Positions 11,121-18,309 of a DNA stretch of 36,125 nucleotides are shown piece after piece (the first letter of the stretch is position 1; the number at the start of each line of letters is the position of its first letter). The DNA is taken from contig NZ_RAVZ01000060.1 in assembly GCF_003611635.1 (NCBI RefSeq), positions 1 to 36,125 on the forward strand. The letters are read 5' to 3'. The position numbers and the translations under genes are program-made. The stretch is from Corallococcus terminator. GTDB taxonomy: Bacteria; Myxococcota; Myxococcia; Myxococcales; Myxococcaceae. The notes beneath the pieces were generated by a model. It had not been told where the DNA came from. It worked only from the letters and a program-made list of their open reading frames with translations, and searched no databases.

Positions 11121-11195
11121 GGCGGGCGCATCCTAGCGGCTTTCGGCATGGCCACGGCGTGCTAAAGAGTGCGTCCATCCCCGGAGGTTTGCCCT

Positions 11196-11546
11196 GTGAC
11201 AACCGGACAGGAATGGCTGGTTGACGCGAGCGGCTGCTCGCCGGAGAGGCTCAAGGACGCGCCCGCGCTGGCGGTCCTCTTCGAGGCGCTCGTCGTCACC
11301 CTGGACCTCAAGGTCGTGGGGCAGCCCCAGTGGCACGTCTTCCCGGAGCCCGGGGGCATCACGGGCCTGGCGCTGCTGGCCGAAAGCCACCTGACCATCC
11401 ACACCTTTCCGGAGCACGGCTTCGCCGCGCTCAACGTCTATTGCTGCCGCACCCGCGCGCGTCCGGACTTCGACGCGCTGGTGGCCCGCTTCCTGGGGGC
11501 CACGTCGTGCCGCGTGCGTGAACTGTCGAGAGGGGTGGAGGCGTGA
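11196..11546 (+). CDS. speD: S-adenosylmethionine decarboxylase proenzyme (bacterial short form)
   Basis: Makes decarboxylated AdoMet, the aminopropyl donor for spermidine-type polyamines. The 116-residue length matches the short bacterial class whose proenzyme self-cleaves to make a pyruvoyl group. The cleavage site is E63-S64 in LLAESHLTIHTFPEHGFAAL, with the processing His (H69) and catalytic Cys (C83/C84) in NVYCC. The start is GTG 11196, with GGAGG about 9 bp upstream; the in-frame GTG at 11169 lacks this site. It is the first gene of a plus-strand operon and overlaps the DUF4178 gene by 4 bp (GTGA). Its placement before a spermidine-synthase-like gene supports a dedicated aminopropyl supply. 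Confidence 0.93.
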   Translation: MTTGQEWLVDASGCSPERLKDAPALAVLFEALVVTLDLKVVGQPQWHVFPEPGGITGLALLAESHLTIHTFPEHGFAALNVYCCRTRARPDFDALVARFLGATSCRVRELSRGVEA

Positions 11547-13456
11547 CGCAGGGGGCGTGTCCGTCGTGTGGGGCGAGCGTGGAGTTCACCGCCGGTTCGG
11601 CGCAGGTGGTCGTGTGCGGCCACTGCCAGACGGTGGTGGCGCGCGCTGGCGCGGAGCTGGAGGCGCACGGCCAGGTGGCCCGCGTCGTGGAGACCGACTC
11701 TCCCCTGCGCCTGGGCCTGGAGGGGCGCATCAACGGCACCTCCTACCAACTGGTGGGCCACCTCCAGAAGGACCACGGCGCCGGTCCCTGGGACGAGTGG
11801 TACGTGGAGATGTCCGACGGCCGCACCGGCTGGCTCAGTGAGTCCGAAGGTGCCTTCCACCTGCTCTTCGACGGCGGCGTGGAGGAGGGCCTGCAACTGG
11901 ACTCCCTCCACCCGGGCGAGCGCCTGCGCCTGCGCAACCGTCCCCTGGTGGTGGAGGAGCGGGGCCACGGACAGGTCACCGCCGCGGAGGGCCAGCTCCC
12001 CAGCGACGTCGACCCGTCCGAGGACTCCTGGTACGTGGACGCCACGGGCCCCCGGGGCCTGTTCGTGTCGCTGGACTTCGGCTCGCGTGACCGCGACCCG
12101 GAGGTGTTCCTGGGCCAGAAGCTGGAGCTGTCGCAGTTGGGCATTCCGGCCGGGGACCTGCGCCCGCGCGTGCGCAAGGCGCAGTTGCAGCAGGCGCGCT
12201 GCACCAACTGCAACGGCCCGCTGGAGTTGCGAGCGCCGGATCAGACGTTGCGCGTGGCGTGCCCGTACTGCGGCGCGCTCATGGACGCGAGCCAGGGCAA
12301 GCTCAAGTTCCTCAAGCTGCTCCAGAAGCCGGAGCTTCCCGCAGACATCCCGCTGGGCGCGAAGGGCACGCTCGACGGGGTGGAGTGGATCTGCATCGGC
12401 TACCAGGAGCGCTCGTGCACGGTGGAGGGCACGCGCTACCCGTGGCTGGAGTACCTGCTCTACCACCCGGCGCGCGGCTTCACGTGGCTGATGGAGTCCA
12501 ACGGCCACTGGGTGTTCTTGAAGCCCCTGGCGGCCGGTGACGCGGAGCTCGTCCCGCATGTCTCCGCGCACTACGAAGGCCGGCGCTACAAGGCCTTCCA
12601 GTCCGTCCAGGCCGTCACCGACGCGGTGGTGGGCGAATTCTACTGGAAGGTGACCCGGGGCGAGACGGCCCAGGCGACCGAGTACGTCGCGCCGCCGTAC
12701 TCCGTGAACGAGGACGCCACCGACAACGAGGTCAGCTACACCCACGGCGAGTACCTGTCGCCGGAGCAGGTGCGGGACGCGTTCAAGCTGAAGGAGACGC
12801 TGCCTCCGCCCCGGGGCATCGCCCCCAGCCAACCCAACAAGCGCCGGGCGGCGCTGACGACGACGCTGAAGTGGACGGGCGTCTGGCTGCTGGGTTTGTT
12901 CGCGCTGTCGGCCGTGCTGCACGCGCGGGCGATGAACGCGCAGGTGTTGGACCTCCAGGTGCAGGTGTCCCCGGGTGCGGCGTCGGGCACGCCCTCCGCC
13001 ATGCACTTCAGCGAACCGTTCGAGCTTGCGCGCGACGGCAACGTCCGCGCGGAGGTGACCATGTCCACCACGCTCGACAATTCGTGGGTGGGCGTGCAGG
13101 GCGACCTGGTGAACCAGGACACGCAGGAGGTGGTGAGCTTCTACGAGGAGATCAGCTACTACCACGGGCGCGACAGCGACGGCTCCTGGAGCGAGGGTGG
13201 CAACCACGGCAGCGTGTTCCTGTCCACGGTGCCCAAGGGCACGTACGTGCTGCGCACCACCACGTCGTTCGACCCGGCGATGAAGTTCAAGTCGAACCTG
13301 CAAGGCGTCAGCTACCGGGTGCTCTTGACGCACGACACGCCGAACGAGAGCTGGTTCGTCATCGCGCTGGTGCTGTTGCTGGTGGGGCCGGTGCTGTCGT
13401 TCATCAGCGCCCACGGCTTCGAGACCGAGCGCTGGAAGGAAAGCAACCTGCAGTAG
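11543..13456 (+). CDS. Double zinc-ribbon DUF4178 membrane protein
   Basis: A 637-residue protein with two similar halves. The first has a zinc ribbon (C6/C9 and C25/C28) followed by a DUF4178-like beta domain containing WDEWYVEMSDGRTGWLSE. The second has another ribbon (C220/C223 and C240/C243) and a second DUF4178-like domain with WLEYLLYHPARGFTWLME. A TM helix at about 443-460 leads to a beta-rich extracytoplasmic domain, and a C-terminal TM helix lies at about 604-624. The cytoplasmic ribbons suggest a docking or sensing role at the membrane. DUF4178 genes are often neighbours of DUF350 and SpeE/SpeD homologues, as here; their biochemical role is not established. Start GTG 11543 is coupled to the AdoMet decarboxylase stop. 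Confidence 0.88.
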   Translation: MTQGACPSCGASVEFTAGSAQVVVCGHCQTVVARAGAELEAHGQVARVVETDSPLRLGLEGRINGTSYQLVGHLQKDHGAGPWDEWYVEMSDGRTGWLSESEGAFHLLFDGGVEEGLQLDSLHPGERLRLRNRPLVVEERGHGQVTAAEGQLPSDVDPSEDSWYVDATGPRGLFVSLDFGSRDRDPEVFLGQKLELSQLGIPAGDLRPRVRKAQLQQARCTNCNGPLELRAPDQTLRVACPYCGALMDASQGKLKFLKLLQKPELPADIPLGAKGTLDGVEWICIGYQERSCTVEGTRYPWLEYLLYHPARGFTWLMESNGHWVFLKPLAAGDAELVPHVSAHYEGRRYKAFQSVQAVTDAVVGEFYWKVTRGETAQATEYVAPPYSVNEDATDNEVSYTHGEYLSPEQVRDAFKLKETLPPPRGIAPSQPNKRRAALTTTLKWTGVWLLGLFALSAVLHARAMNAQVLDLQVQVSPGAASGTPSAMHFSEPFELARDGNVRAEVTMSTTLDNSWVGVQGDLVNQDTQEVVSFYEEISYYHGRDSDGSWSEGGNHGSVFLSTVPKGTYVLRTTTSFDPAMKFKSNLQGVSYRVLLTHDTPNESWFVIALVLLLVGPVLSFISAHGFETERWKESNLQ

Positions 13457-13490
13457 GGCTCCCTCACGGGACGCACGGTGGAGGTGGACG

Positions 13491-13652
13491 ATGAAGTACC
13501 TGGGTGGGTTCGTGCTGCTGGCGTATGCGTGGGCGACCTATACGGGCTGGGCTCCCTTCAGCAACGAGGAGCGCGGACGGGTGACAGGCGATGTGCGGCG
13601 CGGCCCCGGCGGCGTGCTGCTGTGGACCGGTGGATTCATGGGAGGCAAGTGA
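13491..13652 (+). CDS. 53-residue membrane microprotein
   Basis: A small open frame from ATG 13491 to TGA 13652, with GGAGG 7 bp upstream, in the 196-bp space between the DUF4178 and DUF350 genes. The product begins MKYLGGFVLLAYAWATYTGW, a hydrophobic helix or uncleaved signal anchor. A charged middle (NEERGRVTGDVRRGPGG) and a second short hydrophobic end (VLLWTGGFMGGK) follow. Its stop overlaps the DUF350 start by 1 bp (TGATG), and its last codons carry the DUF350 Shine-Dalgarno, so translation of the two is probably coupled. No family was recognised. It could be a small subunit of the DUF350 membrane complex. Confidence 0.75.
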   Translation: MKYLGGFVLLAYAWATYTGWAPFSNEERGRVTGDVRRGPGGVLLWTGGFMGGK

Positions 13653-13879
13653 TGCTGCTGCTTGGAGTGGTGGTCACCCTGCAGGGAGTGCTGGCGAGCG
13701 TCATCTATTCGCTCATCGGTCTGGTGGTGTTCGTGGCCGGCTTCTACGTCATCCGCCTCATCCTCCCGTACGACGTGCACAAGGAGATCGAGGTCGACCA
13801 GAACACGGCGCTGGGCATCGTCATCGGCTCTTTCATCCTGGGCCTGGCCATCATCATCGCGGCGGCCATCGGCGGTTGA
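13652..13879 (+). CDS. Half-size DUF350 membrane protein
   Basis: A 75-residue protein with two or three hydrophobic helices. It matches one DUF350 repeat: an IYSLIGLVVFVAGFYVI helix, a conserved polar link with KEIEVDQNTALGIVIG, and a Gly/Ala/Ile-rich final helix. Usual DUF350 proteins (for example E. coli YjfL) have two such units in about 130 residues, so this form probably works as an oligomer. The start is ATG 13652 with GGAGG about 6 bp upstream inside the microprotein gene. It is sandwiched between DUF4178 and spermidine-synthase-like genes, the usual neighbourhood of the family. Molecular function is unknown; a membrane stress or transport role is inferred. Confidence 0.85.
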   Translation: MLLLGVVVTLQGVLASVIYSLIGLVVFVAGFYVIRLILPYDVHKEIEVDQNTALGIVIGSFILGLAIIIAAAIGG

Positions 13880-13892
13880 ACGACGTGACGCT

Positions 13893-15389
13893 TTGAACAA
13901 GACGCTGCTGTTTCTCACCGTCCTCGTCATCGCGACGTGTGGGCTCATCTACGAGCTCATCGTCGGGACGCTCGCCAGCTACCTGCTGGGGGACAGCATC
14001 ACGCAGTTCTCCACCGTCATTGGCGGCTACCTGTTCGCCATGGGCATCGGCAGCTACCTGTCGCGCTTCGTGGAGCGCGGGGTGGCCCAGCGCTTCGTCG
14101 AAATCGAGCTGGCCGTGGCGCTCTTCGGCGGCCTGTGCGCGCCGATGCTGTTTCTCACCTTCACGCTCACCAACATCTTCCCCGTCGTCCTCTACGGCAC
14201 CGTGCTCCTCATCGGCACGCTGGTGGGGCTGGAGATTCCGCTGCTCCTGCGCATCCTGCAGGACCAGCTCAAGTTCAAGGATCTGGTCAGCCAGGTGCTG
14301 ACGTTCGACTACCTGGGCGCGCTGGCTGCGAGCGTGGCCTTCCCGCTCCTGCTCGTCCCGAAGCTGGGGCTGGTGCGCACGTCGCTGCTCTTCGGCCTGT
14401 TGAACGCGGCGGTGGGCCTGTGGAGCACGTGGCTGCTCGCGCCGGTGCTGGCCAACCCCATGCGCCTGCGCATCAAGGCGGTGCTGCTGTGCATGGGGCT
14501 GCTCGTGTGCTTCGCGATGGGGGACCGGCTCACCACCTTCTACGAGGACCAGCTCTACGCGGACGAGGTGGTGCACGCGACCAGCTCCCCGTACCAGCGC
14601 ATCATCGTCACGCGCGGCAAGCGGGGCTTTTCGCTGTTCCTCAACGGCAACCTCCAGTTCGCCAGCATCGACGAGTACCGCTACCACGAGCCCCTGGTGC
14701 ATCCGGCCATGGGGCGGGCGCGGAAGCTGGACCACGTGCTGATTCTTGGCGGTGGGGACGGGCTCGCGGCGCGCGAGGTGCTCCGCTATCCCGACGTGAA
14801 GTCCGTCACGCTGGTGGACCTGGACCCCGCCATCACGCAGCTCGCCACGGGCTACAAGGAGCTGGCGGTGCTCAACGGGCACGCGCTCACGCACCCCAAG
14901 ATGCGCGTCATCAACACGGACGCGATGCAGTTCCTCACCGAAGGCACGGGCACCTACGACGTGGTGGTGGTGGACTTCCCGGACCCCAACAACTTCGCGC
15001 TGGGGAAGCTGTACACGACGGGCTTCTATAAAATCCTGAAGAAGCGCCTGTCTCCGGGCGGGGTGGCGGTCATCCAGAGCACCAGCCCGCTGTTCGCGCG
15101 GCGCTCGTTCTGGTGCGTGGAGACGACGCTGAAGGCCGCGGGTTTCTGGACGCAGCCGTACCACTCGCTGGTGCCGTCCTTCGGCGAGTGGGGCTACGTG
15201 ATGGTGGCGCTGGAGCCGCCCGGCCGGCACCGCCCGCTGCCAGAGGGGCTGACGTTCCTGGATGAAGACACGCTGGAGGGCATGTCGCGCTTTCCTCCGG
15301 ACATGGCGCCCCTGCCGGCGGAGGTGAACCGGCTGAACAACCAGGTGCTGGTGCACTACTACGAAGAGGAATGGCGTCGGTGGAACTGA
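13893..15389 (+). CDS. Membrane-embedded spermidine-synthase-like aminopropyltransferase
   Basis: Starting at TTG 13893 the protein has 498 residues. The first 205 or so form six or seven TM helices. The C-terminal half is a spermidine/spermine synthase fold with the dcAdoMet-binding GGGDG (286-290), acidic VDLD at the end of the next strand (about 308-311), and D361 in the VVVVDFPDP motif at the active site. An NGNLQFASIDEYRYHE segment matches the substrate-gate region. It probably transfers aminopropyl groups from dcAdoMet made by the first gene, at the inner membrane surface. The open frame extends upstream to 13662, but that part is antisense-like Arg/Ser-rich shadow of the DUF350 gene, and TTG 13893 is the only start near the first TM helix. 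It lies 13 bp after DUF350 and its last 19 bp overlap the FAD-enzyme gene. The acceptor amine is not known. Confidence 0.88.
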   Translation: MNKTLLFLTVLVIATCGLIYELIVGTLASYLLGDSITQFSTVIGGYLFAMGIGSYLSRFVERGVAQRFVEIELAVALFGGLCAPMLFLTFTLTNIFPVVLYGTVLLIGTLVGLEIPLLLRILQDQLKFKDLVSQVLTFDYLGALAASVAFPLLLVPKLGLVRTSLLFGLLNAAVGLWSTWLLAPVLANPMRLRIKAVLLCMGLLVCFAMGDRLTTFYEDQLYADEVVHATSSPYQRIIVTRGKRGFSLFLNGNLQFASIDEYRYHEPLVHPAMGRARKLDHVLILGGGDGLAAREVLRYPDVKSVTLVDLDPAITQLATGYKELAVLNGHALTHPKMRVINTDAMQFLTEGTGTYDVVVVDFPDPNNFALGKLYTTGFYKILKKRLSPGGVAVIQSTSPLFARRSFWCVETTLKAAGFWTQPYHSLVPSFGEWGYVMVALEPPGRHRPLPEGLTFLDEDTLEGMSRFPPDMAPLPAEVNRLNNQVLVHYYEEEWRRWN

Positions 15390-17014
15390 CGCGGCGGGAG
15401 CTGGTGGCCGCGTTCCTGGGGGCCTCCGTGGCGAGCGCCTGTCAGCGCCAGCAGGCCCCGCGCCCCACGGTACCGGGCGCCATCGTGGACCGCGCGGTGG
15501 ACACCGGCCACAAGCTGCGCGGCGGTCCGCTGCCCCGCGCGGAAACCTTCGAACCGGTGGACGTGCTGATTGTCGGCGCGGGCGCGGCGGGACTCTCCGC
15601 GGCGTGGCGTCTGGCCGGCGCGGGCGTGAAGGACGTGCGCGTCGTGGAGCTGGAGGCGGAGGCCGGCGGCACGTCGCGCTCGGGCAGGAACGCCGTGTCC
15701 GCGTTCCCGTGGGGCGCGCACTACCTGCCGTCGCCCCTGGAGGACCGGGGCCCGGTGATGCGCCTCCTGCGGGAGATGGACGCCGTCACCGGTGTGGATG
15801 CGGAAGGCCACCCGTCGTTCGCGGAGGAGCTGCTCATCCAGGAGCCCGACGAGCGGCACTTCTACCGGGGCCACTGGTACGAAGGGCTGTACCTGCGCGC
15901 GGGCGCGAGCGGAAAGGACCTGGAGGAGCTGGAGCGCTTCGATGCGAGGATGAACGCCTTCGCCGCCGCGCGCGACGCGAAGGGCCGCAAGGCGTTCGCG
16001 GTGCCGGTGGCGCTGTCCAGTGACGACGCGGAGTGGACGGCGCTGGACGCGCTGAGCATGGCGCGCTGGCTGGAGACGGAGGGCTTCCAGTCTCCCCGGC
16101 TCAAGTGGTTCGTGGACTACGCGTGCCGCGATGACTACGGCACCACCTCCGAGCACGTCTCCGCCTGGGCGGGCATCTGGTACTTCGCCGCGCGGCAGAA
16201 CGGCCAGGGCGAGCGCAGCGACGGGTTCCTGTCCTGGCCGGAGGGCAATGGCCGGCTGGTGCGGCAGTTGCTGTCCTCGCTGGGCCCGCGCCAGGTGGAG
16301 CCCAACGTGCTGGTCCACACGGTGGAGCCGGGGGAGGGCGGCTGCCGCGTGCATGCGGTGGATGCGCGCACGGGAGCCCCCCGCGCCTTCCAGGCCCGGC
16401 AGGTGGTGCTGGCGTGTCCCCGCTTCGTCGCCGCGCACGTGGTGGCGCCGTGGCGCGAGGCGCGGCCCACGTGGATGGACGCCTTCGTGTACAGCCCGTG
16501 GGTGGTGGCGAACCTGACGCTGTCGGGGCCGCCCGCGTCGCGTGGCTTCCCGCTGGCCTGGGACAACGTCCTCTATGAGAGCCAGAGCCTGGGCTACGTG
16601 GTGGCCACGCACCAGTCGCTGCGCCAGGACGAGCGCGGGCCCACGGTGCTCACGTGGTACCTGCCCATGGCCGGCGAGGACGTGAAGGCCGAACGCAACA
16701 AGGCCCTCTCCGCCACGTACGCGGACTGGGAAGCGCTGGTGATGGCGGACCTGCTGCCGGCGCATCCCGGCGTGGGCGCGCTCACGCAGCGGCTGGAGGT
16801 GCAGCGCTGGGGCCACGCGATGGTTCGTCCCGCGCCGGGCTTCCTCTGGGGGGAGGCGCGCAGGGCCGCCGGGGAGAGCCTGGGCAGGCACTTGCACTTC
16901 GCGCACACGGACCTGGGTGGTATGGCCCTGTTCGAGGAGGCCAACTGGTTCGGGGTGCGCGCCGCGGAGCGGGCGCTGTCTGGACTGGGACGGACCTCCA
17001 CCAGTTGGTTGTAG
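15371..17014 (+). CDS. Exported FAD-dependent amine-oxidase-like protein
   Basis: A 547-residue flavoprotein of the FAD/NAD(P)-binding, amine-oxidase-like type. The N-terminus carries a Tat-like signal (TRRELVAAFLGASVASAC) with R8-R9 and a possible lipobox Cys at 24. The dinucleotide fold starts at 64 with VGAGAAGLSAAW (68-79) and an acidic strand end VVELEAEAGGTSRSG. A C-terminal FAD-contacting segment is near HFAHTDLGGMALFEEANW. In this operon it may oxidise a polyamine made upstream, but its substrate is inferred from context only; protoporphyrinogen-oxidase- or desaturase-like relatives cannot be ruled out. The ATG at 15371 lies within the end of the aminopropyltransferase gene, with GAAGAGGA immediately upstream. 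Confidence 0.85.
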   Translation: MASVELTRRELVAAFLGASVASACQRQQAPRPTVPGAIVDRAVDTGHKLRGGPLPRAETFEPVDVLIVGAGAAGLSAAWRLAGAGVKDVRVVELEAEAGGTSRSGRNAVSAFPWGAHYLPSPLEDRGPVMRLLREMDAVTGVDAEGHPSFAEELLIQEPDERHFYRGHWYEGLYLRAGASGKDLEELERFDARMNAFAAARDAKGRKAFAVPVALSSDDAEWTALDALSMARWLETEGFQSPRLKWFVDYACRDDYGTTSEHVSAWAGIWYFAARQNGQGERSDGFLSWPEGNGRLVRQLLSSLGPRQVEPNVLVHTVEPGEGGCRVHAVDARTGAPRAFQARQVVLACPRFVAAHVVAPWREARPTWMDAFVYSPWVVANLTLSGPPASRGFPLAWDNVLYESQSLGYVVATHQSLRQDERGPTVLTWYLPMAGEDVKAERNKALSATYADWEALVMADLLPAHPGVGALTQRLEVQRWGHAMVRPAPGFLWGEARRAAGESLGRHLHFAHTDLGGMALFEEANWFGVRAAERALSGLGRTSTSWL

Positions 17015-17040: not shown

Positions 17041-18309
17041 ATGCAGGACAAGCGCTTCAGCCGGTCGGAGTTCCTCGCACTCAGCAGCCTGCTCGCGGGC
17101 TCGACGCTCTTCCCGACCCGGGGCGACGCGGCGCCGGACGGTGGCGTGGCCCCGGTCCGCGCGGCCGCGAGCACGGCCGTGGCCCGGGTTCCGGACGGCG
17201 GGGTGGCGGTCCCCGCGCAGCCCACCCAGGCGGAGTTCGACCAGTTGCGCAAGGGCTGCACCGCGTCGCTGAGCGCGGGCTCCACGGCGGACGACGGCGC
17301 GGAGTACGTGCGCATCGGCGAATGGATGCAGCGCCAGAAGCTGTCCAGCGACGTGTACGGCAACGGCGACTTCGTGCAGGCGTTCGAGAAGCGCATCGCG
17401 GACCTGCTCGGCTTCGAGGACGCGTGCTTCATGCCCACCGGCACCATGGGCCAGCTCGTCGCGCTGCGCATCTACGCGGACGCCAGCGGCGTGCGGACCG
17501 TGGGCGTGCACCCGTCGTCCCACCACGTGCTGCACGAGGACGACAGCTACGCGGTGCTGCACCAGCTGCGCGCCGTGTACCTGGGCCCCTGGACGCGGCC
17601 GTTGCTGGCGGAGGACGTGGCCCAGGCCAAGGAGACGATTGGCACCGTCAGTCTGGAGCTGCCGGTGCGGTGGCTGGGCGGACAGCTTCCGACGTGGGAG
17701 CAGCTCGCCGCGCTCAAGCGCACCTGCCGCGAGCGCAAGGTGAAGCTGCACATGGATGGCGCGCGGCTGTGGGAGAGCCAGCCCTTCTATGGCCGCTCCT
17801 ACGCGGACATCTGCAAGGGCTTCGACTCCGTCTACGTGTCCTTCTACAAGATGGTGGGCGGCATTGGCGGGGCGATGCTGGTGGGCAACCGCGACTTCAT
17901 CCGCGAGTCACGCGTGTGGCGCCACCGTCACGGCGGCAACCTGTACCAACTGGCGCCCTACGTGGCCTCCGCCGCCATGCGCCTGGATCCGGCGCTGGCC
18001 GCCATCCCGGGCTACGTGAAGCGCGCGAAGGTTGTCACCGGACTGCTGGCGGCGGACCCCCGCGTCACCGTGCTGCCGCAGCCCGTGCAGACGAACATGT
18101 TCCACGTGTTCCTGCGCGGCTCGCCCGGCGCGTTCAACCGCCAGCGCGACCGCATCGCGCGCGAGGACAAGGTCTGGGTGGCGGGGGGCTTCGGACAGAC
18201 GCGCGTGCCCGGCGTCGTGTCCACGGAGCTCCAGGTGGGCGAAGGGCTCGGGCGCATCAGCGACGCCGACGCGGCCCGGGCCTTCCTGCGCCTGCTCGAA
18301 GCGAACTGA
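17041..18309 (+). CDS. Threonine-aldolase-like PLP enzyme with an export-like N-terminus
   Basis: A 422-residue fold-type-I PLP enzyme of the threonine aldolase/beta-eliminating lyase family. Key sites are the PLP lysine K270 in YVSFYKMVGGIGG, D239 in HMDGARLW, the YGNGDFVQAFEKRIADLLG phosphate-binding lead and H161/H162 near the ring. Unusually, it starts with about 60 extra residues: FSRSEFLALSSLLAGS, which resembles a degenerate Tat signal (one Arg where two are usual), then an Ala/Pro/Gly linker. ATG 17041 is preceded by GGGAGG at a good distance; ATG 17032 is in frame but too close. It is last in the polyamine operon, 26 bp after the FAD gene, and is followed by a terminator. It may act on an amino-acid or amino-alcohol product of the pathway; the substrate is unproven. 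Confidence 0.9.
   Translation: MQDKRFSRSEFLALSSLLAGSTLFPTRGDAAPDGGVAPVRAAASTAVARVPDGGVAVPAQPTQAEFDQLRKGCTASLSAGSTADDGAEYVRIGEWMQRQKLSSDVYGNGDFVQAFEKRIADLLGFEDACFMPTGTMGQLVALRIYADASGVRTVGVHPSSHHVLHEDDSYAVLHQLRAVYLGPWTRPLLAEDVAQAKETIGTVSLELPVRWLGGQLPTWEQLAALKRTCRERKVKLHMDGARLWESQPFYGRSYADICKGFDSVYVSFYKMVGGIGGAMLVGNRDFIRESRVWRHRHGGNLYQLAPYVASAAMRLDPALAAIPGYVKRAKVVTGLLAADPRVTVLPQPVQTNMFHVFLRGSPGAFNRQRDRIAREDKVWVAGGFGQTRVPGVVSTELQVGEGLGRISDADAARAFLRLLEAN

Follow-up and report, generated by a model that had tools for sequence, protein, structure and literature searches.

Operons that combine a transmembrane aminopropyltransferase with DUF350 and DUF4178 proteins are known from earlier work. The available portion of PMC11237479 gives, as its second operon group, an association of PspA/CesT-Tir, DUF350, DUF4178, SpeE with 7TM and a 'novel lipoprotein, Ctha_1186 domain', and it cites Li 2019 (Biochem J) on the aminopropylation of other substrates. 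According to the accessible parts of two further papers, polyamine chains are attached to lysines of silaffins, those of silaffin-3 having two aminopropyl units (PMC3820600), and microcin C bears an aminopropyl group on its phosphate (PMC10491745). The locus considered here lies in a window of 36,125 nucleotides, the whole stretch of DNA analysed, from Corallococcus terminator (contig NZ_RAVZ01000060.1). Like the second group, as presented in that portion of PMC11237479, it unites a 7TM-fused SpeE, DUF350 and DUF4178 in one operon. Unlike it, the window operon includes SpeD and an amine oxidase, which the same portion lists for third-group variants; PspA, present in second-group operons, has its only family match in the window genome on another contig (C372). 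The additional uncharacterized lipoprotein of the second group can be compared with the microprotein that is the subject of this study. The window peptide has no cysteine and therefore no lipobox cysteine; a relationship between it and the Ctha_1186 lipoprotein, which we know from this source by name alone, is possible.

The gene order, all on the forward strand, is SpeD, DUF4178, microprotein, DUF350, SpeE and FAD amine oxidase. SpeD (S-adenosylmethionine decarboxylase; 11169..11546) is the sole PF02675 match in the genome at E 0.001; the Spermine_synth family (PF01564) has five matches in the genome, four of them above the cut-off. The DUF4178 protein (11543..13456; PF13785, E 6.9e-37, two stretches) is laid out as two zinc-ribbon/DUF4178 units, a helix (433-462), a beta-rich domain (466-597) and another helix (602-632). 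In its AlphaFold2 model (pLDDT 87.8) both helices are read as transmembrane, and comparison of the model with the PDB gave no meaningful match (TM-scores by query length about 0.1). A short form of DUF350 (75 aa; 13652..13879; PF03994, E 3e-14) precedes a SpeE-type aminopropyltransferase (13893..15389) fused to a hydrophobic region that we read as seven transmembrane helices, with positive loops at 53-67, 120-135 and 179-193. This count is a hydropathy reading with which the AlphaFold2 model (pLDDT 90) is compatible; DSSP merges helices five and six and splits helix three, and the count was not taken from the coordinates. The soluble domain resembles that of canonical spermidine synthases, matching PDB entries 1uir, 3anx, 6bq2 and others in sequence and fold and retaining GGGDG and other invariant positions; the N-terminal hydrophobic region is what the window protein adds. 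SpeE residues 276-422 also resemble the PADLOC model mad2 (E 3.8e-17), perhaps through a shared methyltransferase-like fold. The FAD amine oxidase (15371..17014) starts with a Tat-lipoprotein-like signal, TRRELVAAFLGASVASAC; a signal of this kind occurs in 14 of 15 relatives examined (the start is unreadable in L102), and judging by it the enzyme is probably exported. A PLP-dependent beta-eliminating lyase (PF01212, E 1.2e-33) occupies 17041-18309, and its N-terminus, MQDKRFSRSEFLALSSLLAGSTLFPTRGDA, resembles an export signal.

The microprotein gene extends on the forward strand from an ATG at 13491 to a TGA at 13650-13652 and specifies 53 residues, MKYLGGFVLLAYAWATYTGWAPFSNEERGRVTGDVRRGPGGVLLWTGGFMGGK. 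The features that the preliminary description had ascribed to it are all present. Its own GGAGG (13480..13484) ends 6 nt 5' of the ATG, a good spacing. The final A of its stop codon, at 13652, doubles as the first base of the DUF350 ATG (TGATG), and the GGAGG of DUF350 (13641..13645), 6 nt 5' of that ATG, lies inside the last microprotein codons, which read Gly-Gly-Lys (GGA GGC AAG, 13641..13649); DUF350 could alternatively start at the in-frame GTG at 13649. The hydrophobic N-terminus is borne out by a transmembrane helix predicted from hydropathy at about residues 4-21 (13500..13553). As an isolated ORF it is unremarkable in size and GGAGG: the window contains 36 first-ATG ORFs of 45-70 aa, two of which have an upstream GGAGG. 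Among 98 loci whose microprotein ends in Gly-Gly-Lys (GGK), a GGAGG precedes its start in 67, and some four-base portion of a ribosome site in 84. In L013 and several other relatives, the beginning of the microprotein gene shares 4 nt with the end of the long ORF ahead of it, which makes coupling to DUF4178 possible as well.

No relative was found in Pfam, NCBIfam, PADLOC or the PDB. Pfam and NCBIfam scans of family members gave no model over its curated cut-off, the stray sub-threshold matches being to PsbN (E 0.02-0.06, one Tritonibacter member) and TIGR04200 (E 0.063, one member). PADLOC, run on the window protein only, gave none, and a PDB search with the microprotein gave nothing convincing (best E 0.12). 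Our literature search returned nothing useful on M. xanthus small proteins detected by ribosome profiling or on a myxococcal transmembrane aminopropyltransferase. The microprotein represents a new small-protein family, belonging to a type of operon that had been noted before.

Comparison with relatives confirms at the sequence level that the 53-codon ORF is a real, conserved protein-coding gene. Conservation of the frame had been set beforehand as the check on which the proposal was to stand or fall, and it did not refute the ORF: of 86 same-family genomes that have DUF4178, 84 carry it. In a first search, which covered 59 relatives, 30 of 35 same-family genomes, its own included, had a match that was full-length and free of stops; the five misses (G021, G025, G027, G028 and G032) are without a DUF4178 match too. 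With a profile, the microprotein was found at E 2.4e-14 or better in the 84 genomes; as for the remaining two, the contig of G153 begins inside the tail (...WTTGFMGGK, then the stop) and that of G120 ends inside DUF4178. Ten same-family genomes without DUF4178 gave no strong microprotein match, G111 having one at E 0.009 with an internal stop. Nei-Gojobori (NG86) estimates from 71 distinct 53-codon coding sequences, in which pairs are compared without regard to shared ancestry, yielded full-length dN/dS values that are all below 1 and fit purifying selection: 0.108 among 16 loci of the genus (120 pairs, not independent of one another), 0.289 among 24 loci of a second genus, and 0.375 when the window was paired with eight loci from other genera. 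In the second genus, codons 26-48 taken by themselves gave 0.179. Among the 71 relatives, frame +1 contains a stop in 68 and frame +2 in 30. Frame +2 is thus stop-free in 41, and because other frames are often open in such G+C-rich DNA, frame openness is weak evidence; the substitution pattern and the fixed length carry the argument. A chance ORF, even though the size and the GGAGG are not rare, is ruled out by the stop-free matches and the dN/dS values.

The constant feature of the family, overlooked in the preliminary description, is the lysine at the C-terminus. GGK is invariant, as is F49, among 24 aligned family members; a set of 21 divergent Myxococcota members shares M1 and the final GGK without exception; and across 15 diverse members from three phyla only M1 and the C-terminal lysine are invariant. 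Counting Lys-ended ORFs directly (103 of 108 loci) is circular, as the search pattern itself required lysine. The five outside that pattern are L030 (ending SFMGGK), L079 and L085 (contig edges), L082 (no ORF) and L104 (DUF350 elsewhere). Excluded from this count and from the 98-locus coupling count were L031-L059, largely repeats of whole-genome loci, and likewise L074, L075, L078, L094-L097, L103, L106 and L107. In place of the circular count we used a pick blind to the C-terminus, based on position, preferred ribosome site and hydrophobicity, with a rule written after several of its ORFs had already been seen. At 25 divergent loci, two of which (L072 and L073) belong to the window's family, the ORF so picked ends in lysine in 24, and the exception is L082, where the rule took the end of DUF4178. 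DUF350 served as a control: at the same 25 loci its last residue is G in 8, H in 6, S and A in 3 each, K and N in 2 each and V in 1; over 103 loci it is glycine in 85 and lysine in 2.

Outside the window's family, DUF4178 occurs in 29 of 99 Myxococcota genomes. It is matched together with DUF350 in 18 of them, and the microprotein ORF lies between the two in 17 of these 18, which include G075, whose contig ends ahead of SpeE. The exception, G163 (L082), has DUF4178, DUF350 and SpeE without a microprotein ORF; in its variant operon a DUF350 with a signal-like N-terminus is flanked by two DUF4178 pieces. In G065 a microprotein tail is seen at the contig edge, and the other 10 of the 29 genomes have different DUF350 contexts or no DUF350 match. 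Scans for small membrane ORFs gave no K-ended ORF in G171 or G180, whose operons have a long DUF350, or in an Alteromonas operon from a plasmid record.

The plasmid-record operons were located through DUF4178 and SpeE searches; a search of these records with the L069 peptide gave 12 weak matches, none of them real. The Gemmatirosa counterpart (...SVRENPGAYRS...RFRHGK, plasmid record) is a weak match of the Myxococcota profile A2 (15 bits, E 0.0075). Three Novosphingobium records have counterparts that end in ...GPTHK or GPSHK: that of N. resinovorum aligns directly with the window peptide over a short stretch (14 aa, E 0.001 in a nine-locus database), and the protein at the corresponding position in Novosphingobium sp. 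ES2-1, WP_193828724.1, is annotated as hypothetical. The Tritonibacter counterpart ends in ...NRVK. In Ensifer the peptide (...GGGPESGK) sits between SpeE and a gene resembling the C-terminal part of DUF4178, and three Burkholderia records have a lipoprotein-like peptide (...LFSC...SYGSHK) between DUF4178 and SpeD. The latter, encoded on megaplasmids, is 48-49 aa long and lipobox-like (L103:7849-7998; L107, reverse strand; L153), and these three stretches carry no annotated features in the collection used. The Tritonibacter, Ensifer, Burkholderia and two of the Novosphingobium peptides are counterparts by position, size, hydrophobic N-terminus and final lysine only, not by significant sequence similarity. 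Adjacency to DUF350 holds in nearly all Myxococcota loci examined and in Gemmatirosa, Novosphingobium and Tritonibacter, and is absent in Burkholderia and Ensifer. Across the loci seen, the neighbour that is kept most constantly is DUF4178, upstream of the microprotein, and not DUF350; Ensifer has only the gene that resembles the DUF4178 end.

How these proteins are oriented bears on what the lysine could do. With the amino end counted as +1, the N-terminal flank of the helix is more positive than the C-terminal one in 10 of 11 members, Gemmatirosa being a tie, and the microprotein is therefore predicted to have its N-terminus inside and its C-terminus, with the lysine tail, outside. A lipobox-like cysteine, recognized by eye in Burkholderia, N. 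resinovorum and a few Myxococcota members, would also mean export. Seven SpeE helices with the N-terminus inside would place the aminopropyltransferase domain outside. The beta-rich domain of DUF4178, lying between two modelled helices, is likewise predicted to be outside. DUF4178 is predicted to be intracellular in the portion of PMC11237479 at hand, in contrast to the two helices and ectodomain predicted for the window protein; that placement may fit the cytoplasmic units of the latter. The tail, the SpeE domain, the DUF4178 ectodomain and the amine oxidase may then meet on one face of the membrane.

Our preferred interpretation, to which we assign a probability of roughly 0.6, is that the microprotein belongs, as a membrane-tethered component, to the SpeD/DUF4178/DUF350/SpeE polyamine module and acts through its lysine tail. 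A single-pass small protein would be a regular member of this membrane module, to which many loci add an exported amine oxidase. Its helix would sit among membrane partners, DUF4178 foremost, leaving a flexible glycine-rich tail on the outer face, where the terminal lysine could be bound or acted on by the outward SpeE domain, the beta-rich domain of DUF4178 or the amine oxidase. The tail might thus serve as a docking, gating or substrate end, and the TGATG overlap in the window would match microprotein output to that of DUF350. Against this interpretation stands the fact that the topology is deduced from hydropathy, flanking charge and the seven-helix count. Moreover, if SpeE works outside, decarboxylated S-adenosylmethionine from the cytosolic SpeD must cross the membrane. 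The absence of the ORF from G163/L082 and from the Alteromonas, G171 and G180 scans also counts against it.

The preliminary description had proposed a subunit of a DUF350 complex. The part of that claim which holds is that the ORF is a coding gene with a predicted membrane anchor and that, in 91 of the 98 GGK-ended loci, the DUF350 start overlaps its stop or is within 3 nt; the link to DUF350 does not extend to the Burkholderia and Ensifer counterparts. One could imagine that the microprotein completes the short DUF350 structurally, its extra helix helping to build a DUF350 membrane complex in which the tail plays a minor part. The tight coupling just mentioned agrees with such an arrangement, and so do the position of the microprotein 5' of DUF350 in 17 of 18 loci beyond the window's family and its absence from the longer-DUF350 operons of G171 and G180. 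However, it is the end of the tail that is conserved, the rest of the protein being divergent, and Burkholderia and Ensifer, which have a full-length DUF350, keep a K-ended membrane peptide away from the DUF350 gene. We consider such a structural role unlikely.

A more specific chemical role can also be conceived, in which the terminal lysine is itself the acceptor of aminopropyl groups that the membrane SpeE transfers from decarboxylated S-adenosylmethionine, the amine oxidase acting on the product. The idea has chemical logic, since by our reasoning the butylamine side chain of lysine resembles putrescine. It agrees with the invariance of the lysine, both in the blind picks and in the 15-member alignment, with the presence of a dedicated SpeD together with a SpeE that resembles spermidine synthases in alignment and fold and has GGGDG conserved, and with the Tat-lipoprotein signal of the amine oxidase. 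For operons of this kind, 'aminopropylation of other substrates' is mentioned in the available part of PMC11237479. The aminopropylated phosphate of microcin C is one precedent, and another exists in the diatom silaffins, where, in the accessible part of PMC3820600, a peptide lysine acceptor is tied to S-adenosylmethionine decarboxylase and aminopropyltransferase genes. The likeness to silaffins is one of idea: many internal lysines are modified in silaffins, and we claim no sequence relation. On the other hand, SpeD is the only one found in the genome, so the operon may simply make spermidine, and the donor would have to be exported if SpeE acts outside. On balance, lysine as acceptor seems to us rather improbable. 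The corresponding outcome, in which the lysine replaces putrescine to give a protein-linked polyamine on the outer face that the Tat-exported oxidase may oxidise, is equally speculative.

The meaning of the C-terminal lysine also depends on the DNA that encodes it. Because GGA GGN AAR TGA TG is itself a DUF350 ribosome site, conservation of GGK could reflect a DNA signal. The first glycine codon is GGA in 90 of the 91 coupled loci and GGG in the other one. In the seven uncoupled loci, where DUF350 lies 17-117 nt downstream and has its own site, it is GGC in all seven and Gly-Gly-Lys is retained (Fisher p 5.8e-10 for the codon switch, uncorrected for shared ancestry). Codon choice tracks the ribosome site; the amino acids do not. 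That GGK is an artefact of the ribosome site is thus ruled out by the uncoupled loci that keep it. The notion that the ORF is a translated leader serving coupling only, with GGK kept as part of the DUF350 site, fits the GGAGG held within the Gly-Gly codons of coupled loci but is already contradicted by those seven loci, by the Novosphingobium peptides, which keep the lysine without Gly-Gly and are followed, 18-26 nt on, by a DUF350 that has a ribosome site to itself, and by the within-genus dN/dS of 0.081 for codons 26-48, with the last five codons excluded.

The locus also shows cleanly how a ribosome site and the protein end that it overlaps can be told apart through a comparison of loci. 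The finding adds a family that has no Pfam or NCBIfam model to the membrane polyamine module, and the C-terminal lysine provides a single testable residue. A lysine that serves as a substrate or docking end would, if this is true, account for the role of a dedicated SpeD/SpeE pair at the membrane. Should the aminopropyl acceptor prove to be this lysine, the operon would represent a dedicated bacterial system for protein aminopropylation.
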